Assembly: GCF_002487355.1 (NCBI RefSeq)
Contig: NZ_NTMG01000023.1
Span: 1-64,000, forward strand
Origin: Candidatus Methanoperedens sp. BLZ2
GTDB lineage: Archaea; Halobacteriota; Methanosarcinia; Methanosarcinales; Methanoperedenaceae
Direction: 5' to 3'
Length of the DNA stretch: 64,000 nucleotides
Within the stretch, counting starts at the first letter, position 1. Each line of letters begins with the position of its first letter. The translations under genes were made by a program, and so were the position numbers. The notes under the pieces are model-generated. The model was not told the origin of the DNA. It saw only the letters and a list, made by a program, of their open reading frames with translations, and made no database searches. Below, piece by piece: positions 16,126 to 33,427 of the stretch.

Positions 16126-19100
16126 GTTTCAATCCTTGTTTTAGTGGATGTGCCTCTTGAATTCGATGCGATCTGATGAGGGTTCAGATTGTAGCCATGG
16201 TTTCAATCCTTGTTTTAGTGGATGTGCCTCTTGAATAGTCATTTTCAGGTTCGGCTTTTATTACTTCCTGAAGTTTCAATCCTTGTTTTAGTGGATGTGC
16301 CTCTTGAATAATAGAGGATAAACTATGGCAACATGCATAATACGTTTCAATCCTTGTTTTAGTGGATGTGCCTCTTGAATTCACCTCCTCTTACTTTAGA
16401 ACTTTAGAAGTAAGTAGTTTCAATCCTTGTTTTAGTGGATGTGCCTCTTGAATTCTATAGTATTTCTTTTTGGCCGTTCAATTATACGAGTTTCAATCCT
16501 TGTTTTAGTGGATGTGCCTCTTGAATGAGAACAGCAGCGATCCGTCGAACGAATAGATCCGTTTCAATCCTTGTTTTAGTGGATGTGCCTCTTGAATAAA
16601 AAGAGTAGGCTTAGCCTACTCGTATAGGACGCCGTTTCAATCCTTGTTTTAGTGGATGTGCCTCTTGAATGAATTCACAGTCATTTACTGGAGCAGTTGC
16701 ACCAGGTTTCAATCCTTGTTTTAGTGGATGTGCCTCTTGAATACAGTAACTTTTACCTGAACCGGTCTTTCAACAAGAGTTTCAATCCTTGTTTTAATGG
16801 ATGTGCCTCTCGAATGGAAAACCCCCGTATCATGGAAAACATATAAATTAGTTTCAATCCTTGTTTTAATGGATGTGCCTCTCGAATGTACTCTTCTTGC
16901 CGTGAGGGAGTTGAGTTATGTAGTTTCAATCCTTGTTTTAATGGATGTGCCTCTCGAATGTGCATGTACAGTATCCATCTGCGCCCTGTCTGAAGTTTCA
17001 ATCCTTGTTTTAATGGATGTGCCTCTCGAATAATAGCTTTTACTGCTGCGCCAAGAGCTGTTACTAGTTTCAATCCTTGTTTTAATGGATGTGCCTCTCG
17101 AATCAAACGCCCACCAGTCATCATCAGATATTCTTTTTAGTTTCAATCCTTGTTTTAATGGATGTGCCTCTCGAATCTGAGAAAGAATATGATAGAGTTC
17201 TCGAAGCTGTATTGTTTCAATCCTTGTTTTAATGGATGTGCCTCTCGAATTCTATAACAGTATGTCTTGCTGAATCAATAATAGAGTTTCAATCCTTGTT
17301 TTAATGGATGTGCCTCTCGAATAGCAATAACCTTTAATAGTACAACACAAAGTACCACCGTTTCAATCCTTGTTTTAATGGATGTGCCTCTCGAATAATG
17401 TTTATCCGGTTTTGGTATTAGCCAAAAAACATGTTTCAATCCTTGTTTTAATGGATGTGCCTCTCGAATAGCATTTACTGCGTCAGCTATATATCCGTCC
17501 GCTATGGTTTCAATCCTTGTTTTAATGGATGTGCCTCTCGAATAAAGATATATCTCTACCAACAGTATCAACTAAAGTGTTTCAATCCTTGTTTTAATGG
17601 ATGTGCCTCTCGAATTATATGCTTGTTGGTTCGACTGCTTTGTCGGATGATAGTTTCAATCCTTGTTTTAATGGATGTGCCTCTCGAATGAGAGAGAGAG
17701 AGAGAAAGAGATAGTTTCTTTATAGTTTCAATCCTTGTTTTAATGGATGTGCCTCTCGAATACTATAATAGCTATTCTTTAGCGAAAAGAAGGCTTAAGT
17801 TTCAATCCTTGTTTTAATGGATGTGCCTCTCGAATCCACTACTTCCGCCCTGCCATGCTCCGGACCGAATGTTTCAATCCTTGTTTTAATGGATGTGCCT
17901 CTCGAATCCGAACACTCTATCCTTAAGGACTTATTCGCTCCAGTTTCAATCCTTGTTTTAATGGATGTGCCTCTCGAATCTAAGTTCAACTCTCTTTTTA
18001 CCTTTGGTGTATGGTTTCAATCCTTGTTTTAATGGATGTGCCTCTCGAATTCAACTCATTCTAACGACATACTCAGAGCAAACAAGTTTCAATCCTTGTT
18101 TTAATGGATGTGCCTCTCGAATAAGATGAATTTGTTGATTCTGAGCAAGCGTTATTTGGGTTTCAATCCTTGTTTTAATGGATGTGCCTCTCGAATAGTA
18201 TTATCTCAGTTGTACCAGCAGTATTTAATTAGTTTCAATCCTTGTTTTAATGGATGTGCCTCTCGAATTATTGTTAGTGGAAGTGTGGGCATATTAATCT
18301 CCTAGTTTCAATCCTTGTTTTAATGGATGTGCCTCTCGAATTGTGTTCACTGAACATAGTCCATAGGACTTAAAGCAAGTTTCAATCCTTGTTTTAATGG
18401 ATGTGCCTCTCGAATGAAAAGTATCGGAAGGAGATAGACCTCAAAGTCAGTTTCAATCCTTGTTTTAATGGATGTGCCTCTCGAATTTTCCTCGCAGCGA
18501 GCATCCCTTCCCGAATATTATCGTTTCAATCCTTGTTTTAATGGATGTGCCTCTCGAATAATTGACCGTTACAAATGTTGCAGCCTTTGCTGGTGGTTTC
18601 AATCCTTGTTTTAATGGATGTGCCTCTCGAATACATGACGACACAGGCGCACGCAGCAATCAATTATCTGTTTCAATCCTTGTTTTAATGGATGTGCCTC
18701 TCGAATCGTCTGGACAGGCTTGGACGGGATCCTGTAGAATGTTTCAATCCTTGTTTTAATGGATGTGCCTCTCGAATATAGATTGCCATCTACGCCCACT
18801 CCTCGATCACTGGTTTCAATCCTTGTTTTAATGGATGTGCCTCTCGAATACTCTCTGGCTCATCGACACCAAAAAAGCCCTTGGTTTCAATCCTTGTTTT
18901 AATGGATGTGCCTCTCGAATCTTTTCTCCTGTATTTGATGACGATGATGAGATGAGTTTCAATCCTTGTTTTAATGGATGTGCCTCTCGAATTCGTCTGG
19001 ACAGGCTTGGACGGGATCCTGTAGAATGTTTCAATCCTTGTTTTAATGGATGTGCCTCTCGAATATTTGGAGAGTTATAACCTCATTTTTCAGGAGAAGT

Positions 19101-22037
19101 GTTTCAATCCTTGTTTTAATGGATGTGCCTCTCGAATTTGCCTTCGATGTGGTGAGCATTTTGTCACTATCTGTTTCAATCCTTGTTTTAATGGATGTGC
19201 CTCTCGAATGCAATTGCGATCATCATTGCTGCTGTGCTTGGAAAGTTTCAATCCTTGTTTTAATGGATGTGCCTCTCGAATTATCAACATATTATTCAGC
19301 CATACATGGTATGAGTTGTTTCAATCCTTGTTTTAATGGATGTGCCTCTCGAATTTGCCTTCGATGTGGTGAGCATTTTGTCACTATCTGTTTCAATCCT
19401 TGTTTTAATGGATGTGCCTCTCGAATTTTATTATTGTTCTGTTATTCGGAGCCATATTAAGTTTCAATCCTTGTTTTAATGGATGTGCCTCTCGAATCAA
19501 AAAAAGCCTTTGGAGACATTTTTAATGGCACAGTTTCAATCCTTGTTTTAATGGATGTGCCTCTCGAATTTCGTTCCTGGAGCTGCAAGATTGAAGGGAT
19601 TTCCGTTTCAATCCTTGTTTTAATGGATGTGCCTCTCGAATCCCAGGTAGCAGTCGCGTCTGTGAATTCATGAAAAGTTTCAATCCTTGTTTTAATGGAT
19701 GTGCCTCTCGAATTATATTAACTTAAATAATAGATTAAGAAAAACAAGTTTCAATCCTTGTTTTAATGGATGTGCCTCTCGAATCTGAGATACTTGCAGC
19801 AGGGCGAACATATCTTCAGTTTCAATCCTTGTTTTAATGGATGTGCCTCTCGAATTACAAAATTACGCGTTCGCAGGGTGAATTAAGACAGTTTCAATCC
19901 TTGTTTTAATGGATGTGCCTCTCGAATGATTACACCTTCATATCTCTGCTGAAAAGTTGTGAGTTTCAATCCTTGTTTTAATGGATGTGCCTCTCGAATA
20001 TTTTTGGTGGTGTCGCGGGGCTTAGCAGCGTCGGATGTTTCAATCCTTGTTTTAATGGATGTGCCTCTCGAATTAACGATTGATGTCAACCAGTCTTGAC
20101 TGTGGCGGGTTTCAATCCTTGTTTTAATGGATGTGCCTCTCGAATAGAGATCACCGTAACGGTTATTACGAAAATTAATTTTGTTTCAATCCTTGTTTTA
20201 ATGGATGTGCCTCTCGAATCCTTTAGCCATTTTAATCATCTCTATTTTTCTTTGGGTTTCAATCCTTGTTTTAATGGATGTGCCTCTCGAATTAGATTGA
20301 AGATTCAACAACGGAAGCACTGTTTGCAGTTTCAATCCTTGTTTTAATGGATGTGCCTCTCGAATTGGATAGCCAGATCCAAAAAATAATTTCTATTGTG
20401 TTTCAATCCTTGTTTTAATGGATGTGCCTCTCGAATTTTGTTATGGCTGCATTAGAATTATACAATATCCTGTTTCAATCCTTGTTTTAATGGATGTGCC
20501 TCTCGAATCTTCCGGGATAGAGGTACGGAAAATAACCAGCTTGGGTTTCAATCCTTGTTTTAATGGATGTGCCTCTCGAATTATATCTGCAACATTCCCC
20601 GCAGCGCTTACACCTGGTTTCAATCCTTGTTTTAATGGATGTGCCTCTCGAATCTACAATTCACGCATGCTCTAACATCGCCATGTAGTTTCAATCCTTG
20701 TTTTAATGGATGTGCCTCTCGAATAAGGGTTCATGATGTGCATGAAGGATGAAGAGTTGTTTCAATCCTTGTTTTAATGGATGTGCCTCTCGAATAATTT
20801 GAAACAGTCATTACAGCGAATACGGCAGCTTTGTTTCAATCCTTGTTTTAATGGATGTGCCTCTCGAATTGAATAATGAAAAAGAGACTATCCCGGAAGA
20901 TCAGTTTCAATCCTTGTTTTAATGGATGTGCCTCTCGAATTGACTTCTATCACAGCATCAGCGGTATCTGAAAGCGGTTTCAATCCTTGTTTTAATGGAT
21001 GTGCCTCTCGAATTCTTGTTTTCCAGATAGTACAAGCAGTATTTAGTCCGTTTCAATCCTTGTTTTAATGGATGTGCCTCTCGAATATGCTTCCGCTTCT
21101 TGTTTTCATCCCCAGAAATATGTTTCAATCCTTGTTTTAATGGATGTGCCTCTCGAATAGGTTTGATTCCCATAAAAAATAAATAAGATAGTTGTTTCAA
21201 TCCTTGTTTTAATGGATGTGCCTCTCGAATCTGACAAGATGGCAAACAACTATAAGGCTTATGTTGGGTTTCAATCCTTGTTTTAATGGATGTGCCTCTC
21301 GAATCTTATACAATTAGGGCATCTATGAATGATGCTTTGTTTCAATCCTTGTTTTAATGGATGTGCCTCTCGAATACTATAGGGAACTTCTCATTTATGC
21401 AGTTGAATATTAGTTTCAATCCTTGTTTTAATGGATGTGCCTCTCGAATTATAGGGAACTTCTCATTTATGCAGTTGAATATTAGTTTCAATCCTTGTTT
21501 TAATGGATGTGCCTCTCGAATTTCAATTCGGAAGATTCGCAACACGTAGAAAAGAGTTTCAATCCTTGTTTTAATGGATGTGCCTCTCGAATCTTATACT
21601 GTAGGGAAATCTATTTTGATCGTTGGAGGTTTCAATCCTTGTTTTAATGGATGTGCCTCTCGAATGGTATTATCCCCATTTTTCATTATTTTTTCATTAG
21701 TTTCAATCCTTGTTTTAATGGATGTGCCTCTCGAATATTTCACCTCATAATTTTAAAGCGGAAAGGTAGGAGAGTTTCAATCCTTGTTTTAATGGATGTG
21801 CCTCTCGAATATTAGATTCAAAATTATATTATCCAGAAAATATTAAGTTTCAATCCTTGTTTTAATGGATGTGCCTCTCGAATTACGTTTCTGCTTCCAG
21901 TATATCCAAAAAATAGGGCATCATCGTGTTTCAATCCTTGTTTTAATGGATGTGCCTCTCGAATCATCTATTTTTGAGATACTACAATCTGGAAAAGGAT
22001 GTTTCAATCCTTGTTTTAATGGATGTGCCTCTCGAAT
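16126..22037 (-). CRISPR. Type I-B CRISPR array, 82 full 37-nt repeats, transcribed leftward
   Basis: I counted 82 full repeats with starts from 16126 to 22001, mean period about 72.5 nt, and 81 spacers of about 34-37 nt. On the plus strand each repeat begins GTTTCAATCCTTGTTTTA, so in crRNA sense it ends in ATTGAAAC, the classic archaeal type I 5' handle; this and the cas genes on the right set the transcription as leftward. The first nine repeats from the left (16126-16742) have AGTGG and CTCTTGAAT; the other 73 (from 16779) have AATGG and CTCTCGAAT. Three spacers occur twice. Long ORFs inside are artefacts of the repeat. Confidence 0.98.
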
Positions 22038-22145
22038 ACCACAGATTTTCACCTGTTTAAGGCAAAATAAGGGTTAATATGGCTTAGATTTTGCGGTTGG
22101 ATTTCTTGCTGCAAAATTATGGATTGGTATATAAAGACAAGAAAA
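22038..22145 (-). promoter_or_regulatory. CRISPR leader and promoter
   Basis: This 108-nt gap lies between the newest repeat and the cas4 stop. Read leftward it has TTTATATA (22135-22128), a good archaeal TATA box, about 90 nt before the first repeat, so the transcript would begin near 22105 with about 70 nt before the array. It is A/T-rich as leaders are. The repeats on this side are uniform, as expected at the growing end. Confidence 0.7.
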
Positions 22146-23062
<917 letters not shown>

Positions 23063-23087: not shown

Positions 23088-24056
23088 TTATTTTATCAGG
23101 CTATTCGCTATGCTGTGGCATTCCATCTGTATAGTGTTCCTTATCTTGACATTGCGCCCGTTATAGTCAATATCCTTATCAAGCATTTCATTGATCGCTG
23201 TTATTAAAACCGCTTTACCCCCCTTATTCATGTACAAGCCTCCGGGAATCTTATCAAAAAGCCCTTCATGCACCTGTTTTTTTGAGAAAAGGTTCATAAC
23301 CGTTCTATCAACATGTATCCTGAAGATCTCAATAAGGTCAAAAACAAAGCTTTTCTTATTGTAATTATCCGTATGCAAAAAGCCCATATAGGGATCAAGT
23401 CCTGCTATTATGCATCCTTTCTCGACCTGCGAATACAGGACACCGTAGCCGTAATTAAGAAGGCAGTTAAAAGCATCTTGCGCGGGATCGCGGCTTCTGC
23501 CGTTGAATTTCCAGGCATCCGGCATGATATTGCTAAGGGCATTGAAATAATTGAGTGATGCCATACCTTCAGTCCCCATGATAGAGCCGCGCTTTTCATC
23601 AAGTGATCCTTTCATGCCAGCAAGATTTTCTCTAAGTTCTGCAATTTTCGCAATGTTTGGCTCGATCAGCTCTTTATCATCCGGCCTATTCTTTTTCAGG
23701 TCTTTCAGGAAATCAAGCTGGCTATCGATCTTGCGCACTATCCAGCCGCGCGCAAGATTAAATCCCAGGACGGACGCTTCGGCTTCAAGCTGACGGCGTC
23801 GGATAAGGGTCGTGCTGCCAAGTTTTGAGTGCCATACTCTTCCGAAAGGATTTCCATGGAAATCCAGGAAAACAATATCAATATTGTTCTCGACAGCGAA
23901 CTCGATCGCATCCGTGCTTATGGTCGCTGATGTGGTTATGAGGATGCTGTCAACCTTATCTGCCGAGACTTCAAAGCTCTTGTCATCGTTCTTTATGAGA
24001 AAGCAGTTCTTTTCCTTTTTGAGATACGCACCGCGCGTGTTTATTACGAGCTGCAT
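23088..24056 (-). CDS. cas1: CRISPR integrase Cas1
   Basis: 322 residues, normal length. The N-terminal beta domain (1-80) has the Cas1b-like IVFLDFHGNPFGR; the helical domain holds the metal ligands E163 (GTEGMASLNYF), H228 (GFLHTDNYNKKS) and D240 (FDLIEIFR). It inserts new spacers at the leader end of the array. It follows a small nucleotidyltransferase gene by 6 nt and precedes cas2 on the same strand. All catalytic residues are present, so adaptation is probably functional. Confidence 0.96.
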   Translation of the reverse strand: MQLVINTRGAYLKKEKNCFLIKNDDKSFEVSADKVDSILITTSATISTDAIEFAVENNIDIVFLDFHGNPFGRVWHSKLGSTTLIRRRQLEAEASVLGFNLARGWIVRKIDSQLDFLKDLKKNRPDDKELIEPNIAKIAELRENLAGMKGSLDEKRGSIMGTEGMASLNYFNALSNIMPDAWKFNGRSRDPAQDAFNCLLNYGYGVLYSQVEKGCIIAGLDPYMGFLHTDNYNKKSFVFDLIEIFRIHVDRTVMNLFSKKQVHEGLFDKIPGGLYMNKGGKAVLITAINEMLDKDIDYNGRNVKIRNTIQMECHSIANSLIK

Positions 24057-24062
24057 TAATAA

Positions 24063-24563
24063 TCAGCCACTTTTAAGATGATCATTTTGAGGTTTGTAAG
24101 ATACCTGTCTTCTTGTTTCAAGCCATTTCCTCCTTGTTGTGGTCATATCCGTTGCTGTTTTGAATCTGTTGCCGGTTATCCTGTGCAACATATCTTCCCA
24201 ATTTTTCCTGAAATGATAAAGATAATAAGAAATAGAGGGCTCATTGCCATATATCACCCTGTAATTTTCTATAACATCCATTTTAACATACAGGGGCAGA
24301 TCTTCAAAGACCTTTATATCATATCTGCCGCCGACTTTTTGAAAGATGCTTTTCAAAATTCCGGTCGTTCGAGGTTTGATGAGGCAGATATCGATATCTG
24401 AACGTTCATTTGCAGTATTCATAGCATAGGAACCGTAAAGTAAGATGCCTTGCGCTTCGTCTTTTATGAATTCGAATTCTTTCTTCAGCCTTATTATAAG
24501 TTCTTCAGCATCCATATTGGTTGACTTTTGATAATTTTGTTTCATTATATCATGAGTTATCAT
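24063..24563 (-). CDS. Stand-alone minimal nucleotidyltransferase within the cas operon
   Basis: 166 residues. Pol-beta-type nucleotidyltransferase core: GILLYGSYAMNTANERSDID, with G44-S45 and the metal-binding D56/D58. The C-terminal third is helical and basic (RRKWLETRRQ). It resembles MntA-type antitoxins, which AMPylate HEPN toxins, but no HEPN gene is directly beside it; the hepT gene is on the other side of cas6. It lies 6 nt from cas1 and 5 nt from cas6, so it is fully embedded in the operon. Initiation may be at M7 or M17. Link to CRISPR function is inference. Confidence 0.8.
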   Translation of the reverse strand: MITHDIMKQNYQKSTNMDAEELIIRLKKEFEFIKDEAQGILLYGSYAMNTANERSDIDICLIKPRTTGILKSIFQKVGGRYDIKVFEDLPLYVKMDVIENYRVIYGNEPSISYYLYHFRKNWEDMLHRITGNRFKTATDMTTTRRKWLETRRQVSYKPQNDHLKSG

Positions 24564-24568
24564 ATTTG

Positions 24569-25261
24569 TCAGCTTTGGTATATATTATTAAAGTTCATTT
24601 CAGGATCATTTTTCATGACAACTGAGCCAAAACCCCTTGAAACTGATTTTCCCAGACCGAGATGATCGGGTATGATGAAGTTTGCATGGAAACCTCCGAT
24701 AAAGGTCATTACATTCACGTCTTTCAACCTGCGTTTCCTGATATTTACCTGGACATCACATTTTATTTTATCAGGAACCTGGTAATTCAGCGATTTCGAC
24801 ATGGACAGCAGGTTTCCAGTGAGTGTTTTTCTCAAGAAATCAAACCTTTCCCCGCCATCCTTCAAACCGTAATATCTCATATAATTCTCCTGGTTAAGAG
24901 CAAGCCACGGTGTTGCGAACTCGTAAGAATGTATCTTCTCTGAAAGCCCGAATTCCTGGTTCTTTACGCAGATGCCCCTTTCAACGATCTCATAAACCTC
25001 ATCCCCAAGTTTTATCTCATCGTATTTATCATAGACTTGTTTTAAAACTTCGGCGCCGTCATTGATGCCGATGACCATGGGCGCGCCGTTTATCATTTTG
25101 TATTGTACCAGTGGATAGCTGTAAATGAATTTATCGGCTTTGTGCTGATGGAGAAGGGCGTATTCGTTGAATTTAGTGGCAAAGAAACCGCGAAGCTGTG
25201 TTGATGTGCCTTCTATGTGGCGGTTGGATGCAAGGGTGAGTGTGAAGGTTTTGAGGTTCAT
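24569..25261 (-). CDS. cas6: CRISPR repeat endoribonuclease Cas6
   Basis: 230 residues, two RAMP ferredoxin-like halves, with the C-terminal glycine-rich loop LGLGKSVSRGFGSV that identifies Cas6. It cuts the array transcript 8 nt upstream of each spacer, which agrees with the ATTGAAAC handle in the repeats. A likely catalytic His is in SNRHIEG near residue 15, though the site is not certain. It lies between hepT (40 nt away) and the nucleotidyltransferase gene rather than next to cas8b, as in many I-B loci. Confidence 0.88.
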   Translation of the reverse strand: MNLKTFTLTLASNRHIEGTSTQLRGFFATKFNEYALLHQHKADKFIYSYPLVQYKMINGAPMVIGINDGAEVLKQVYDKYDEIKLGDEVYEIVERGICVKNQEFGLSEKIHSYEFATPWLALNQENYMRYYGLKDGGERFDFLRKTLTGNLLSMSKSLNYQVPDKIKCDVQVNIRKRRLKDVNVMTFIGGFHANFIIPDHLGLGKSVSRGFGSVVMKNDPEMNFNNIYQS

Positions 25262-25301: not shown

Positions 25302-25733
25302 TCAGGTTTCATTTTCTATATACCTGTCAATGATTTCTATAAACTCATAAAAATCCTTCAATTCCAGGTTTAGATAAGAATATGACCTCGAATCATCCAC
25401 ACGACCATATTGATGTACAAGCAGGTTTCGAAATCCTACAAGTTCTTCAAGCCTGGTGGAAAGTGACACTGGTAATACTTGATTTTCTGCAAGCTTCCTT
25501 ATGCTGTCTTTACTATCCGACGGTATTCCAAATCCTTTCTCAGATATGATCAAATTGCAGATATCAAGCAAATTCTCACTTGCCAGCTGGAAAGCACGTT
25601 CACATGCTCGTTTCCTGAGACCATTATTCAGGTAATCCTCTTCTTGTTCCGGGAGATATTCCTCAAGTTCCCTCAGATAGTTCTCCATTTCATCTATCTT
25701 CTCAAATAATCTATCTTTATCCACGATCATCAT
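25302..25733 (-). CDS. hepT: HepT-like HEPN toxin (RNase)
   Basis: 143 residues, all-helical HEPN/DUF86 domain. The active-site motif R102-x4-H107-x-Y109 (FRNLLVHQYG) matches HepT toxins, where the tyrosine is the residue AMPylated by the partner antitoxin. The start overlaps the end of the upstream nucleotidyltransferase gene by 4 nt. Free HepT cleaves RNA (tRNA in studied cases). It is embedded in the CRISPR-Cas locus, upstream of cas6 on the same strand. Confidence 0.88.
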   Translation of the reverse strand: MMIVDKDRLFEKIDEMENYLRELEEYLPEQEEDYLNNGLRKRACERAFQLASENLLDICNLIISEKGFGIPSDSKDSIRKLAENQVLPVSLSTRLEELVGFRNLLVHQYGRVDDSRSYSYLNLELKDFYEFIEIIDRYIENET

Positions 25734-26176
25734 CCCAATCTGGCTCTAACGCGTTCCATTACGCGCTTATGGTATTCCCCGGTGAGCCTTTTGTATCGTT
25801 CATATTCCATATCATTGATCTTTGAAAGTGTTAATAGGTGATACATGTCCTGCGTGTATAGCACCTTCCCTTCAAGAAAAATCCTTTTACGAATATAAAC
25901 TGGCAATTCATCTATGAATGAAATATCGATATTGTCCGGGACAGAATTGTTAAGTGATATTCTCTCTTTAAGTGTAATCTTAACTTCCGGTTTTGGAATG
26001 ACACAGATATCTATATCGCTATTTTCTTTTTCAGTTCCTCTTGCCTTTGATCCAAAAAGAATGATCGAGTGAACAAGTCCTGAACTCCTGAGCTTAATGA
26101 TCAACTCGTCGAGGTCTATGTTCGATTTTTTTTGATCGTTTACTTTTGGCACATGAACAATTTGATTTTTCATCAT
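25730..26176 (-). CDS. mntA: MntA-like nucleotidyltransferase antitoxin
   Basis: 148 residues with the minimal nucleotidyltransferase core LFGSKARGTEKENSDIDICV: G42-S43, D54 and D56. Members paired with HepT silence it by AMPylation (type VII toxin-antitoxin). It overlaps hepT by 4 nt and comes first in the pair. GAGG stands just before the start and an A/T-rich TATA-like stretch at 26190-26203, so this gene may supply the promoter for mntA-hepT-cas6-NTase-cas1-cas2-cas4. Confidence 0.88.
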   Translation of the reverse strand: MMKNQIVHVPKVNDQKKSNIDLDELIIKLRSSGLVHSIILFGSKARGTEKENSDIDICVIPKPEVKITLKERISLNNSVPDNIDISFIDELPVYIRKRIFLEGKVLYTQDMYHLLTLSKINDMEYERYKRLTGEYHKRVMERVRARLG

Positions 26177-26820: not shown

Positions 26821-29256
26821 TTAAAACAGTAAAGTTCCTCCTGAACCTGGTATAAATCCAGTTTCTAAATCATACCTATCTTTTAATTCTTCTATTGAAA
26901 CATAGGCTATCCCAGTTTCATTTTCAGGCTTAGGTGCCTTATTCTTGGGGATTGAAATTACATATTCATAGAAATCTTTTTTTATTTTTAAGAATTCATT
27001 TTTTCTTTCAATTGGATTTTTTAGTTCTTTTATCACCTTATATTGATTCCATACAGCTTTAGCAAAATAATCCAATTCGATAAATACATCGATTTTATAG
27101 TAGTCCTCTTGAATAAGTTTAAAGTTTTTATATAACTGTTCAAATTCTAATTTTTGGACAAATGAAAGAATCTTATTAGATACATCATCACTTCCACTGT
27201 CTTTGATTTTTTTAAAATAATTATTGCTTAAGGTTAAAAAGTAATTTTCATTTATTCTTTCAGGAGCTTCTTTGAGGACTTCTTTAGTTTTATCGATCAG
27301 AAAAGGTGAATAGATATATCTATAATATTCTTTATTCTCATCTTTCAGAATAAATAATTTTACCAGCCCTTTCTTCCCCTCTGAATAATTTCGATTGCAT
27401 CTTCCAGAAACTTGGTTTATTGAATCCATTGTTGAAAAATCACGATAAACAGTATCAACGTCAATATCCACACCAGCTTCAATAAGTTGAGTGCTGACAA
27501 TTATTTTTCGTGCTTTATTATTTCTTATATCGTTTATTCTATCAATACGTTGGCAAGGAGTAATGTTTGTGGAAAGATAATACAATTTTATGCCTGTAAT
27601 TTTTAATGATTCCAAATATTGATAAACACTTTTTGAAGAATTTATTGTATTAAGTACAATAAGAAAATTATTATCTTTATTTTCTTCAACATCACTTCTT
27701 ATGATTTCTTTAAAATTATTGAGAAGCAAAGGTTGAAGGTTTGGTATTAATTCAATTCTATCAAATTTATTAAAATAATATTTTTTATTTGTTACAAGTT
27801 CAACAATTTCTTTCTTGCTTTCATCAAAAATCAATGGCTGCGTCGCAGTCACAAAAATAAAATAAGTGTTGAAGCATTTTGAAAATAATGAGATAACTTC
27901 TTTGAATAAAAGCCAATATTCATGAGGAATTGATTGAACCTCATCAAGAATAACTATTGAATTTATAATGTTATGAAATTTTCTTAATGACCTATTTTTA
28001 TTTGAAATTAAAGAGTGAAAGAGTTGTATAAAAGTAGTTACAATTATTTCAGAGTTCCAGCCCTCAATTAGTAACAAACTTTCAGAAGTATCGTAATCAA
28101 CATTTTCATTGGTTTCATAAAAAATATCAGATAAATGGTGATGCTTCAATAAAATATCGGTTGTTGGAGTATAGCCCTGAACTTTTTTAAATACATCTTC
28201 AAAAACCTCGAAATTCTGATCTATAATACTTAAAAAAGGAAGTGAATATATAATTTTAGGCATGAAATTTCTTTCATTTATAATCTTATCCCTCAGTTTT
28301 AAAGAAAAAGATAATACAGTAAGTGTTTTTCCTGTTCCAGTCGGAACATTCAATGAATAAATATTATTATCTAAACTTAAGGTTTTTAATTCTCCTATAA
28401 CATCTGAATAAATCTCATTTCTGATAATATCCATTTTATTTTTTGGTTTATCATAGCCTTTGATTATCCGATAATTATCAACCAAATCTAAAGGAATCGC
28501 ATTGTTACGGTCAATTTCTTGAATACCCGATGCATCTAATTTGTCGGAATTTAAAAGAATAGAATAAAAAAGTTGAGTCAAAAGATAATATTGTAATCCA
28601 GGCGCATCCCCTTGGATGGATTTCTCATTTTGCAGATGATCAGAAAAAGTTCTTCTATTGCTTTTGATTTCTTTGATAATGCTTTTATAAGTACTAATAA
28701 ATTTAATTATATCAATATTTGGTAATAATTCCAAATAAATCAGTTTGAGCTCTTCTAAACACAGAGAATTAATTTGCCTGTTTAAGATTTCTACATTTTT
28801 ATCATCTAAGTCTAAGATTTCATTTGTTACATCTCCTAAATTTCCATGATGTTTTTTTACTGCAAAATAACCTAACATCGGTAAAAATTCAAATTTTAAA
28901 TCTTTAAGATATTCTTTTATAACAAAGTAAGTAAATAACGAAGAAAGTAGTCCATGTCTTGTTTCAGGATTATTTTTAAGCGAACTTTTTCGTTTTTCGT
29001 CTTTTTCATTTATATAATTTTGAAAATTAATTGTTCCTTTTCCAAAATCATGTGAAACCCCTGTTATAAATGAAAAGTTGGCCAAGATTTCATCATTTAA
29101 ATTGAAAATATTCGAGTTGATTTTCTTGGATTGTATAGTATTTTTACAAAATAATCCCACATTTCTAAGGTGATCAATTAAAAATTTATCCGGATGGGAT
29201 TTTAGATTAAAGAAAGATGATTGATTCATTAGTTTCCAATTCCCAATATCTATCAA
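26821..29256 (-). CDS. cas3: CRISPR effector helicase-nuclease Cas3
   Basis: 811 residues, fused HD nuclease and SF2 helicase. The HD domain (about 20-245) has an upstream His (DHLRNVG, H29), H69-D70 in SHDFGKG and H101. Walker A is PTGTGKT at 305-311, the DExH box is VILDEVQSIP, motif III FVTATQP and motif VI QVSGRCNR. Cas3 unwinds and degrades DNA marked by Cascade. Its start overlaps cas5 by 50 nt; M10 (29229) is an alternative start. All motifs look intact. It is notably A/T-rich like the neighbouring Cascade genes. Confidence 0.96.
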   Translation of the reverse strand: MIDIGNWKLMNQSSFFNLKSHPDKFLIDHLRNVGLFCKNTIQSKKINSNIFNLNDEILANFSFITGVSHDFGKGTINFQNYINEKDEKRKSSLKNNPETRHGLLSSLFTYFVIKEYLKDLKFEFLPMLGYFAVKKHHGNLGDVTNEILDLDDKNVEILNRQINSLCLEELKLIYLELLPNIDIIKFISTYKSIIKEIKSNRRTFSDHLQNEKSIQGDAPGLQYYLLTQLFYSILLNSDKLDASGIQEIDRNNAIPLDLVDNYRIIKGYDKPKNKMDIIRNEIYSDVIGELKTLSLDNNIYSLNVPTGTGKTLTVLSFSLKLRDKIINERNFMPKIIYSLPFLSIIDQNFEVFEDVFKKVQGYTPTTDILLKHHHLSDIFYETNENVDYDTSESLLLIEGWNSEIIVTTFIQLFHSLISNKNRSLRKFHNIINSIVILDEVQSIPHEYWLLFKEVISLFSKCFNTYFIFVTATQPLIFDESKKEIVELVTNKKYYFNKFDRIELIPNLQPLLLNNFKEIIRSDVEENKDNNFLIVLNTINSSKSVYQYLESLKITGIKLYYLSTNITPCQRIDRINDIRNNKARKIIVSTQLIEAGVDIDVDTVYRDFSTMDSINQVSGRCNRNYSEGKKGLVKLFILKDENKEYYRYIYSPFLIDKTKEVLKEAPERINENYFLTLSNNYFKKIKDSGSDDVSNKILSFVQKLEFEQLYKNFKLIQEDYYKIDVFIELDYFAKAVWNQYKVIKELKNPIERKNEFLKIKKDFYEYVISIPKNKAPKPENETGIAYVSIEELKDRYDLETGFIPGSGGTLLF

Positions 29257-29929
29257 CTTTTGCTGTTATTCCTTTTCCTTGAACACCGTTTCTTTCAAAC
29301 ATAACTTTTCTGTACTCCTTTAATGATCTATCCAGTTCCATTTCCGTTGGAATGGTTTCAGAAAAATATTCTCCATCTTCCAATTTGATTTCTTTGATCG
29401 AGTCAGTAGGGAGAGCAGAATCTAATTTTATAAACTCAGTGGATGATTTTTCTCTTATCGCTTTTTCTCCAATGAATTCAAAATTAGCAATATGTTCGGT
29501 GATTCCTAGACAGGGGGTATAGACGCATTTATGGTGCAAAAGCATAGAATTTACTTTGTTAAATATAATTGGATCTATATGATAGAAATATATTCTATAT
29601 TTTGCATCTTTCACAAATTCGAACCTTATTTGTGTTCGAGGGCTGTGGGCGCCTTTTTTGATTGGAATGAAATAATCATCCTTTGTGTTAATCAGATTTT
29701 CAGCTAATCTGACCTTTTTAATCGGATTCAGAATTCTAACTGCAATCTGCGCCTGTTGTTTTGAGAAATATTTCAAATATTCATCTTTTGGAAGACCTAA
29801 GATAGCCCCTATAAGCCCACTAATTGCTGTTCTTGGTGGAATTGAAAAAGAAAGAGGCGATGTTGTAGTATAGTATTTTCTAAAATGTGCATACTCACCC
29901 CAAACATCGAATACCAATATTTTATCCAT
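29207..29929 (-). CDS. cas5: Cascade subunit Cas5 (type I-B)
   Basis: 240 residues. N-terminal RAMP fold KILVFDVWGEYAHFRKYY followed by the Cas5 signature PPRTAISGLIGAILGLP. It binds the crRNA 5' handle and contacts Cas7.1 in Cascade. The gene lies 5 nt after cas7 and overlaps cas3. Length is typical for the Cas5h/5b branch. Confidence 0.95.
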   Translation of the reverse strand: MDKILVFDVWGEYAHFRKYYTTTSPLSFSIPPRTAISGLIGAILGLPKDEYLKYFSKQQAQIAVRILNPIKKVRLAENLINTKDDYFIPIKKGAHSPRTQIRFEFVKDAKYRIYFYHIDPIIFNKVNSMLLHHKCVYTPCLGITEHIANFEFIGEKAIREKSSTEFIKLDSALPTDSIKEIKLEDGEYFSETIPTEMELDRSLKEYRKVMFERNGVQGKGITAKVDRYWELETNESIIFL

Positions 29930-29934
29930 ATACC

Positions 29935-30978
29935 CTACGATGATAACTGCAGCGCTGGAATTCCAGTGGTTTTCAAGGCTTCATTAATCGTGATTTCTTT
30001 ACCTTCTAATTCAAATCTTGCTCTGTCATCAATTTGATATTCAACATTTTGAATTAAATCCTTTTTGTTTTTTAGGACATCGATTATTTTTGTAAGATTT
30101 ATCTTAACTTGAGATATGTCTCTCAACTCTTCATCAGGAACTTCTTTTACCAATGAAATCATACTATTGAGGTCCCCAATGTGGTAATTATTCTCTTTGT
30201 AATTCACTTTTATAAGCAGCCTCGGAACTTGACCCACTTTTGATCTGGATATCAAATTTTTTGTACCATTCCATATACCATCCAGAAGAAACTTTACATC
30301 ATCATCGGTAAGTTTTGTGTCTTTTGCAGCATTTTCATTTATGATTCCATAGAAGTTGATTAATGAGTAAAACAGAAAATCTTCTTCACGAAATGTTTTT
30401 TGCTCAGCACCCTTTTTTGAAGCGAATGCTCCAGTACCTCTGAAGTGTTTTATATATACTTTATGTAACGATCTACCTATCTTAAATTGAACTGGTCCAG
30501 TAAAAGTTAATGAGCTTGTTTGTTCCTTGCTTTCAGTTTGCTCCTTAATATCTTCTTTAGGTTTTTCGGTCTTTTTTCCTTTTTTAACCTTCAATTCCAA
30601 TGGAATTGTTGCTCCGAATAATCTAACGTCTATGCACTTCTTCAAGATTTCAGCGGTAGCTATTTCTTTTTGTTGCTGAAGTGTTTTGCCTTCTAATTCC
30701 GCAGAGGGAATATGTTTTAAGAAGTCCGATGCCCTCAACTTTGCGTCCTGAATATGTCCTTCTTCATCAGAGATCTCCCTCACAAAAATATCTTGTTTCT
30801 TAAAATTATATAAATAATCTCGGATAGTTCTCTTAAGCCTGACATCTGTTATAAGGTTGAGTCCAGTTTCTTCGTCAATTCTTGGTTTATTTTCATCCAA
30901 AGGATCTCCGTTTGGATTTGCATCTTTCACATCGTACAAAAATACGAGTTCTGACCTATTTGTAATTATATTGCTCAT
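29935..30978 (-). CDS. cas7: Cascade backbone subunit Cas7 (Csh2-like)
   Basis: 347 residues. Opens with SELVFLYDVKDANPNGDPL, the Csh2/Cas7 hallmark, and has TDVRLKRTIRDYL. A Lys/Glu-rich insert (about 125-150: VKKGKKTEKPKEDIKEQTE) is a loop outside the core. Several copies coat the crRNA spacer. It overlaps the end of cas8b by 23 nt and is followed by cas5. Confidence 0.95.
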   Translation of the reverse strand: MSNIITNRSELVFLYDVKDANPNGDPLDENKPRIDEETGLNLITDVRLKRTIRDYLYNFKKQDIFVREISDEEGHIQDAKLRASDFLKHIPSAELEGKTLQQQKEIATAEILKKCIDVRLFGATIPLELKVKKGKKTEKPKEDIKEQTESKEQTSSLTFTGPVQFKIGRSLHKVYIKHFRGTGAFASKKGAEQKTFREEDFLFYSLINFYGIINENAAKDTKLTDDDVKFLLDGIWNGTKNLISRSKVGQVPRLLIKVNYKENNYHIGDLNSMISLVKEVPDEELRDISQVKINLTKIIDVLKNKKDLIQNVEYQIDDRARFELEGKEITINEALKTTGIPALQLSS

Positions 30979-32899
30979 GTGTCTCCTCCGTTGTTGATCT
31001 AAATAGATTTGAGAGATTCATACCTAATACAAAATAAAAACTTATTTCATCATTTGACATTTTCCACCCTTCTCCAGATTGAACCATATATTTCCCAATT
31101 AAAAATTCCAGATTTTTATAATAATTTTTTCCATATTCTTCAAGCTTGTTTTGAATTTCGGGCAACAATTTCTTCACATGTTTTTCATCTAATTTCAATC
31201 CCTGAAGTTTTATTCTAAATGGCGTAGCTTTTCGATCATTGTATTGAATATTTAATAAATATTGCGTCAATACACCTTCTAAGAATATTGCTTTTTTCGA
31301 ATCTTTATTAAAGAAATCTGAAAATTCTTTAAACAAGGTATTTACTTTCTCCTCTAACTGTAAATTTGTTCCTTGCAGTAGGTTTGTGATGCTCTTTTCA
31401 TTCATATTTTTACCTCCGTTAAAATTGTCAAGAAGTTCTAACTCATTTAAATAAATAAGAAGTTGAAAACCTTTTAAGGTGAGATATTTTGTTGATTTTG
31501 TTTCATCTTGAAAATCTCTTCGAATTTTCTTAATTATTCCCCACATTAAAAATGAATAATCAATTTTCTTATTTGTAAAAATTTTATTTGTTATTTCAAG
31601 AAAATAAGTGCTTAAATCCTGTTCTATATTGCCCTTACCCTTAGAAGGATATTTTACAGCTTGAACGGTATTATCGATTGAACTCAAATCTGATTCCATT
31701 TTCCCCTTTCCTTTAGGATTGGGAAAAAATGAAAAAATGTTTCCAAAGTTGAATTCCAATGATTTACCTTCTTTCAATATGTATTCACTAAAAATGCCAA
31801 TTTTATCAACTTTTTCTTTGGCTTGGAAAAGTTTCTTTAATCGAGAAGGTAAAATATCTTCGATATATAGTAAAATCCTGAATGCAGAGTTATCTTTTTC
31901 ATAAATTAATAGATTATTATTAAAAAAATTTTCTTGTTCTGCAAGAATACTTAATATATCATCTTCATTAGCATCTAAAAGTCGAATATATTTCTTTTCA
32001 AACTTTGGATCTTTTCCTTTAAAATCCTCTAAAATTCTAAAAATGTCAACTCTTTTATTTTGATTTAAAAGTTTTGGAATGACAAAATAATCGAACCCAT
32101 AAAATCTGAATTTTGAATTTTCAAAGATGTATTTTTTCCCTCCTTCCAATGTTAAGGCACAATTCAAACATACAGGGTAATTTTTCCATGCCAATGATTG
32201 ATCGAATCCACCGCTAATAAATCCAGGCTTATCAACGGTATAGAATTCATAGGTTCCGACAAAACCAAATACCTCTTCGGACTTTTTTCTACAAACTGAA
32301 CAAACTTTATTAGTGGATTTGGATTCCTTTCCATATTTTTGATAATAACCTTTCGAAGTCTTTTCAAGTAAAATTCTTCTGAAAACTGGGAAGTCTCCGA
32401 TATACTGTTTTTCGGGAGAATAAATGAACACAGTTATTATGCTTGGATCCTTTTTATCAAGAGTATTATATTTAATTGTTAAATCCGATAAAATTGCATC
32501 TGTATTTGATTTTAAACAGTCGTTTAATCTCTTAAGAAATTCAATTTCCTCACCTATAAAGATGATTTGATTTTCTTTGGTAATATTCGTAAACCATTTA
32601 ATGGTCTTATTAGAAAAGGTCTTTTCAATATCTGTAATCCTGCTTGTGGGTGTTAAATCAGTTCCATTAGGAGCCCCTTGCTTATACAGATATTGCTTTA
32701 TCTTGCTTTTGCTGTATTCTTCTAATTCGATACCAACATATCCAAAACCATTTTCATTTTTATTAACTCTAATACCAAGAATATGTTTATAAGTGCCATT
32801 ACTATCTGGATCTTCAATTACGATATCCGTAGGGTCTTCTAATCGTCTTCCAGCCTTTTCAAGCGAGTATTCTCCGATCTCTTTTACAGCCTCAATCAA
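30956..32899 (-). CDS. cas8b: Cascade large subunit Cas8b (Csh1/TM1802 type)
   Basis: 647 residues. The zinc finger of the Csh1 family is visible as C200/C203 (VCSVCRKK) and C244/C247 (YPVCLNCALTLEGG). The rest is helical, as expected for the subunit that reads the PAM and recruits Cas3. It is the first gene of the cas8b-cas7-cas5-cas3 block. Its presence with cas7, cas5, cas3 and cas6 sets the subtype as I-B. A/T-rich TTATATATC at about 33065-33073, on the complementary strand, could be its promoter. Confidence 0.93.
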   Translation of the reverse strand: MIEAVKEIGEYSLEKAGRRLEDPTDIVIEDPDSNGTYKHILGIRVNKNENGFGYVGIELEEYSKSKIKQYLYKQGAPNGTDLTPTSRITDIEKTFSNKTIKWFTNITKENQIIFIGEEIEFLKRLNDCLKSNTDAILSDLTIKYNTLDKKDPSIITVFIYSPEKQYIGDFPVFRRILLEKTSKGYYQKYGKESKSTNKVCSVCRKKSEEVFGFVGTYEFYTVDKPGFISGGFDQSLAWKNYPVCLNCALTLEGGKKYIFENSKFRFYGFDYFVIPKLLNQNKRVDIFRILEDFKGKDPKFEKKYIRLLDANEDDILSILAEQENFFNNNLLIYEKDNSAFRILLYIEDILPSRLKKLFQAKEKVDKIGIFSEYILKEGKSLEFNFGNIFSFFPNPKGKGKMESDLSSIDNTVQAVKYPSKGKGNIEQDLSTYFLEITNKIFTNKKIDYSFLMWGIIKKIRRDFQDETKSTKYLTLKGFQLLIYLNELELLDNFNGGKNMNEKSITNLLQGTNLQLEEKVNTLFKEFSDFFNKDSKKAIFLEGVLTQYLLNIQYNDRKATPFRIKLQGLKLDEKHVKKLLPEIQNKLEEYGKNYYKNLEFLIGKYMVQSGEGWKMSNDEISFYFVLGMNLSNLFRSTTEETHEQYNYK

Positions 32900-33181: not shown

Positions 33182-33427
33182 TTACCTGTAAACTTTCTTC
33201 CTGTTTTCAAACTTATGCAGGATCATAATATCGCCGTTTAGCTCATATAAAATCCGAAATGGTGGTATTCTAACACTACGAAGGGGAAAAAGCTCATATT
33301 TTAGTGGTTTTCCGATTTCCGGATTATCGATAATCTTCTGGATTAGCTTTTTTATCCTTTTTTGGATTTTCTTATCTCTTATCTTCCTTATATCTCCCTT
33401 AAACTCCTCTGTATAAATTAATTTCAT
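33182..33427 (-). CDS. RelE/ParE-type toxin
   Basis: 81 residues: LIYTEEFKGDIRKI, a basic helix pair KKIQKRIKKLIQKI, then NPEIGKPLKYELFPLRSVRIPPFRILYEL, the strand core of the RelE superfamily, ending in HKFENRKKVYR. Such toxins cut mRNA on the ribosome or poison gyrase. It overlaps its antitoxin by 4 nt. The pair lies just upstream of the cas8b promoter region. Confidence 0.85.
   Translation of the reverse strand: MKLIYTEEFKGDIRKIRDKKIQKRIKKLIQKIIDNPEIGKPLKYELFPLRSVRIPPFRILYELNGDIMILHKFENRKKVYR

Follow-up and report, generated by a model that had tools for sequence, protein, structure and literature searches.

Two near-identical spacers in the type I-B CRISPR array of a Candidatus Methanoperedens genome were very probably acquired separately, by the Cas1-Cas2-Cas4 proteins of the locus itself, from one protospacer or from the corresponding site in near-identical viruses. 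The pair lies in the 64,000-nucleotide stretch of DNA that we analysed (the window), which belongs to a draft genome (3.7 Mb, 85 contigs). A preliminary description of this DNA, made from its letters alone, had proposed two acquisitions rather than array duplication; that proposal is supported, and the comparative pattern in 64 related loci carries the case.

The array (Table 1) is transcribed from the minus strand, with its leader at the high-coordinate end, and contains spacers of 34-37 nt plus one of 44 nt. The minus-strand repeats terminate in ATTGAAAC, with the leader and cas4 at the high end and variant or truncated repeats at the low-coordinate end. The crRNA 3' (PAM-distal) end of every spacer is therefore its plus-strand 5' side, which bears out the side to which the preliminary description had assigned the extra base of the focal pair. 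In type I systems the PAM lies 5' of the protospacer on the crRNA-matching strand, and in this locus it would presumably sit at the crRNA 5' side. The 44-nt spacer, at 21884-21927, falls well beyond the length range of the remainder. The nine oldest repeats (16126-16742) differ from all of the newer ones (16779-22037) at two positions that switch together, and the old form is the repeat of L046, another Methanoperedens-like locus; repeat replacement or array joining are possible origins of this switch.

A complete type I-B operon on the minus strand runs into the array in the order cas8b, cas7, cas5, cas3, cas6b, cas1, cas2, cas4, and encodes the components that place it in this subtype, namely Cas8b, Cas7 and Cas5 of Cascade, the Cas3 helicase-nuclease, Cas6b and the Cas1-Cas2-Cas4 adaptation module. 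In Pfam searches the helicase domains of Cas3 were matched and the HD domain match was weak. Relatives of the cas1 gene at 83-98% identity come for the most part from Methanoperedens. Since the type I-B system here is complete and includes Cas4, the premise of the preliminary description that the PAM-proximal end of a type I spacer is fixed applies to it. Within the operon, from cas3 to cas1, there are also HepT-like and MNT-type nucleotidyltransferase genes (24063-24563, 25302-25733 and 25730-26176, minus strand), which form a toxin-antitoxin-like pair and one lone nucleotidyltransferase, and a ParE-like toxin gene (33182-33427, minus strand) adjoins cas8b.

Table 1. Positions in the window of the CRISPR array, its cas genes and the three pairs of duplicate spacers
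Feature	Positions	Strand	Basis or description
Type I-B CRISPR array	16126..22037	-	82 repeats of 37 nt, 81 spacers
Focal spacer, older copy	18707..18740	-	34 nt, CGTCTGGACAGGCTTGGACGGGATCCTGTAGAAT, 46th from leader
Focal spacer, newer copy	18993..19027	-	35 nt, 42nd from leader
Third pair, older copy	19138..19172	-	35 nt
Third pair, newer copy, nearer leader	19355..19389	-	35 nt, identical to older, three repeats apart
Second unequal pair, older copy	21376..21412	-	37 nt
Second unequal pair, newer copy	21450..21484	-	35 nt, adjacent to older; 2 nt shorter at crRNA 3' end
Leader region, between array and cas4	22038..22145	-	inferred from polarity
cas4	22146..22745	-	Cas4b profile, E 6.6e-82
cas2	22742..23035	-	profile search
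cas1	23088..24056	-	Cas1b profile, E 1e-139
cas6b	24569..25261	-	profile search
cas3 (HD + helicase)	26821..29256	-	PADLOC Cas3b, E 8.4e-242
cas5b	29207..29929	-	profile search
cas7b	29935..30978	-	profile search
cas8b (TM1802 family)	30956..32899	-	TM1802/Cas8b, E 2.9e-161 (Pfam)

The newer, leader-proximal copy of the focal spacer is the longer of the two and equals the older copy plus one leading T on the plus strand, that is, at the crRNA 3' end. The positions and lengths of the copies, their identity except for one base and their separation by four repeats had all been given in the preliminary description, and the array parse reproduced them exactly. The 37-nt repeats flanking the copies are identical and the spacers between them are all unique. 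Array duplication, recognized by equal length and/or by neighbors duplicated in order, does not describe this pair, in which the lengths are unequal and the neighbors unique. The different spacers between the copies exclude a block duplication, and no duplicated block surrounds them in the window array; strains with a whole duplicated block of spacers had been named in the preliminary description as evidence that would count against two acquisitions. The next best same-array similarity scored 13.5 compared with 34-35 for the focal pair, making chance identity over 34 nt negligible, and no further copy of the spacer was found in the 3.7-Mb genome at up to three mismatches.

Two more duplicate pairs, beyond the one described earlier, occur in the window array. 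The second pair carries an extra AC on the plus strand, on the same side as the focal difference; these bases correspond to GT on the minus strand, where the repeat would give AT. Because its extra bases are not repeat-derived, the second pair argues more strongly for separate captures than does the focal pair, whose extra base is the end base of the repeat and which, taken alone, is compatible with a 1-nt slip after duplication. The third pair is identical in sequence and length.

In this reading, the PAM-side cut sets the crRNA 5' end and the PAM-distal cut wanders over 34-38 nt, so that two captures of one site have the 5' end in common and are usually unequal at the 3' end. We compared all same-array spacer pairs (~80,000), at offsets from -14 to +14 and on both strands, in arrays adjoining related cas1 genes (78-80 arrays after deduplication, 64 loci, ~2,814 spacers). 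With their crRNA 5' ends aligned at offset 0 there were 51 same-strand pairs, and the only other same-strand pairs were three with many mismatches at offsets -9, 6 and 10, as expected for neighboring PAMs. Twelve of the 51 pairs lie in duplicated blocks, a further 14 are identical but single (nine adjacent) and 25 are non-identical, the latter comprising 10 pairs that differ in length only, 7 with one or two mismatches and 8 with more. The L049 array stayed split in this sample, and its length-only pair of spacers 17/38 (37/35 nt) was counted separately. Lengths were unequal in 21 of the 25 non-identical pairs, and in the L049 pair as well, always at the crRNA 3' end. When the main set and the check set described below were combined (~3,250 spacers), 19 of 19 near-identical, non-identical same-array pairs had the crRNA 5' end in common. 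Thus, the PAM end is common to the copies and the PAM-distal end is free to differ, the arrangement by which we recognize re-acquisition. Mismatches were also present in fifteen pairs, which are therefore not simple copies; equal length was seen in 4 of these 15, compared with 22% expected for independent draws, and spacer lengths behave like independent draws.

Alternatively, the focal pair could have arisen by array duplication: repeats would have recombined unequally, the three duplicated spacers in between would then have been lost, and a 1-nt slip (T to TT) would have occurred where spacer and repeat meet. These arrays do undergo duplication, as evidenced by identical-length duplicates that include blocks (spacers 15,16=17,18 of L058, 19-21=50-52 of L064, and others in L137, L150 and L167) and by the nine adjacent identical pairs, and the match of the focal extra base to the end base of the repeat would suit a slip. 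This route, however, needs three steps, and the clear array duplications have equal lengths throughout, often in blocks. No duplicate in a 12-mer scan of ~2,800 spacers had an indel at its 5' end or internally, and the unequal pairs all differ at one end only, many of them by 2-3 non-repeat bases. We consider this route improbable for the focal pair.

If the spacer had been taken up again from the DNA of the array instead of from a virus, its sequence would have stayed identical, and the newer copy is indeed the shorter in about half of the unequal pairs. Such a process cannot yield a longer newer copy with non-repeat bases, as found in L049 11/16 (TCC versus CTT), L055 14/19 (C versus A) and L086 31/32 (A versus G), and the newer focal copy is likewise the longer; in addition, the end of a repeat would need to act as a PAM. 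The extra bases equal the first bases of the repeat in only a minority of the unequal pairs. Non-repeat extra bases, together with newer copies that are longer, rule out both extension into the repeat and re-copying from the array as explanations of the class. Self-array re-capture is already contradicted for the class of unequal pairs, and for the focal pair it is highly unlikely.

An assembly or sequencing error in the draft contig is about equally hard to credit: although the draft genome comprises 85 contigs, the second window pair shows a 2-nt difference, and named isolate genomes, such as that of Methanohalophilus euhalobius WG-1MB (L086), have the same pattern.

The check set, for which predictions were fixed beforehand, consisted of twelve further arrays with 432 spacers, partly from new genera. 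It contained a length-only pair (36/35 nt) whose members are four apart and differ at the 3' end, an identical pair, and a diverged pair (L225 16/31, 30/35) that is shifted by 1 nt at the 5' end and counts against the pattern; the single available case agrees with both the 3'-end prediction and the close-spacing prediction. If the eleven length-only pairs are re-acquisitions, approximately three equal-length re-acquisitions would be expected (11 x 0.22/0.78), compared with four non-adjacent, non-block identical events that were seen (window 37/40, L047, L150 46/48 and L160). The third pair of the window is therefore plausibly a re-acquisition as well, whereas true duplications account for most of the adjacent identical pairs and blocks; this split is an estimate and not a measurement.

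The only protospacer homologue found for the focal spacer lies in a sister genome, G070, where 31 of 35 bases match and all four mismatches fall at third codon positions within the codons for RLDRLGRDPVE; the gene encodes a serine recombinase of the DNA invertase family (Resolvase domain, E 3.2e-24). In this homologue, which is not the exact protospacer, CGTCTTG is preceded by T, the extra base of the 35-nt spacer. A match of the extra base to the protospacer had been put forward in the preliminary description as a check on separate acquisition; the T does match the aligned base, and the match on its own is weak evidence because T is also the terminal base of the repeat and the aligned position is a third codon position, at which more distant recombinases sharing the Tyr-Arg motif have T or C. 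Such agreement is expected about half the time and shifts the odds by hardly more than a factor of two. Pair L144 34/60 is a second such case, its extra 3' T being matched by a protospacer homologue located in G162. Candidate PAM flanks, each from a single case, are TCA (G070) and TGA (G162), and PAM inference from overlapping spacers yielded too few cases. Spacers 64 and 97 of L049 correspond to opposite strands of one 33-bp site, which must therefore have a usable PAM at each side.

The G070 homologue belongs to an element of ~10 kb (L106 9055-19347, G070:C1) that carries a tyrosine integrase and a packaging-type ATPase in addition to the serine recombinase, and that is bounded by 30-nt repeats resembling a tRNA 3' end, with no tRNA gene called there. 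The integrase, the packaging ATPase and the tRNA-end-like flanking repeats suggest that this is probably an integrated virus-like element, and the target of the focal spacer would then be a serine recombinase/invertase gene on such an element of Methanoperedens. Both copies were presumably supplied by the same episode or by repeated infections by one virus, and candidate reasons why a cell already holding the spacer would capture it again are weak interference, priming and simultaneous captures. Window spacers gave only chance-level matches elsewhere in their own genome and no match to phage records, and the spacers of the second and third pairs, searched alone, gave only chance-level matches outside the window. 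The three duplicated spacers had no match in viral contigs, either as exact cores or as codon-degenerate patterns; the exact protospacer was not found in viral contigs searched with the recombinase protein, and the relatives searched have no spacer in common with the window array.

Length-only pairs are separated by 1-5 spacers, except for L049 17/38 at 21, and diverged pairs by 4-42 spacers. This difference (Mann-Whitney p = 0.006, L049 17/38 included) and the correlation of mismatches with separation (Spearman 0.59, p = 0.0015) carry optimistic p-values, as the pairs come from one clade, sometimes from one genome, and are not fully independent. The pattern fits exact pairs as captures within one episode and the rest as later captures from drifted viruses. 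Mismatches are confined to the first five crRNA nucleotides in L087 1/4, L091 11/13, L040 34/36 and L046 7/18, so that four of the seven near-exact pairs have changes at positions 1, 2, 1-2 and 5. Among pairs with one or two mismatches, 6 of 10 mismatches fall in the first 8 nt (p = 0.012, for an enrichment noticed before testing); over all mismatch pairs seed enrichment was not significant (p = 0.20), and the 432 spacers of the check set contained no pairs with one or two mismatches. There is a hint, no more than suggestive, that seed-escape variants are recorded in some re-acquisitions. Natural I-B arrays could conceivably form a dated record of repeat captures, with exact pairs close together, diverged pairs farther apart and some pairs seed-changed after viral escape, the memory then being updated, although we hold this wider reading only tentatively.

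Variant-length spacers arising from a correct PAM-side cut and an inaccurate distal cut have been described for the type I-F system of P. atrosepticum (PMC5059440). Those were measured in new acquisitions in culture, whereas ours are old duplicate spacers in natural I-B arrays, in which the length spread is much wider. The type I-B system of C. difficile, which like the window locus has cas4, acquires new spacers of 34-40 bp (PMC8406132); that study used experimental overexpression, did not set out to address duplicate spacers, and excluded over-represented protospacers prior to analysis. The mechanism of a PAM-fixed cut with a loose distal cut is thus already known, and what is less expected is the frequency of re-acquisition beside duplication in this clade. 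SpacerPlacer sorts repeated spacers into duplications, re-acquisitions and independent insertions, and assigned 86% of candidates to duplications and ~1% to re-acquisitions (PMC11472070). It merges spacers one edit apart, which hides 1-nt length differences, whereas here the length difference is what separates the classes. By this length tag, re-acquisition looks about as common as array duplication in our clade, which suggests a share much larger than the ~1% of SpacerPlacer for datasets that differ.

Duplicate spacers are usually ascribed to recombination, and merging near-identical spacers conceals the distinction. In systems with a loose distal cut, spacer length is a built-in tag that tells a second capture from a copied spacer. 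If re-acquisition is about as common as duplication, repeat exposure would be measurable from single genomes of uncultured archaea, and the same tag would perhaps also make viral escape and memory updating readable from them.

Elsewhere in the genome, a solitary I-B repeat with 3 mismatches was observed directly before an ATG in L108 (5625-5661; G000:C5:119624-119660). It sits in a 212-aa open frame, of which other Methanoperedens have only the repeat part.
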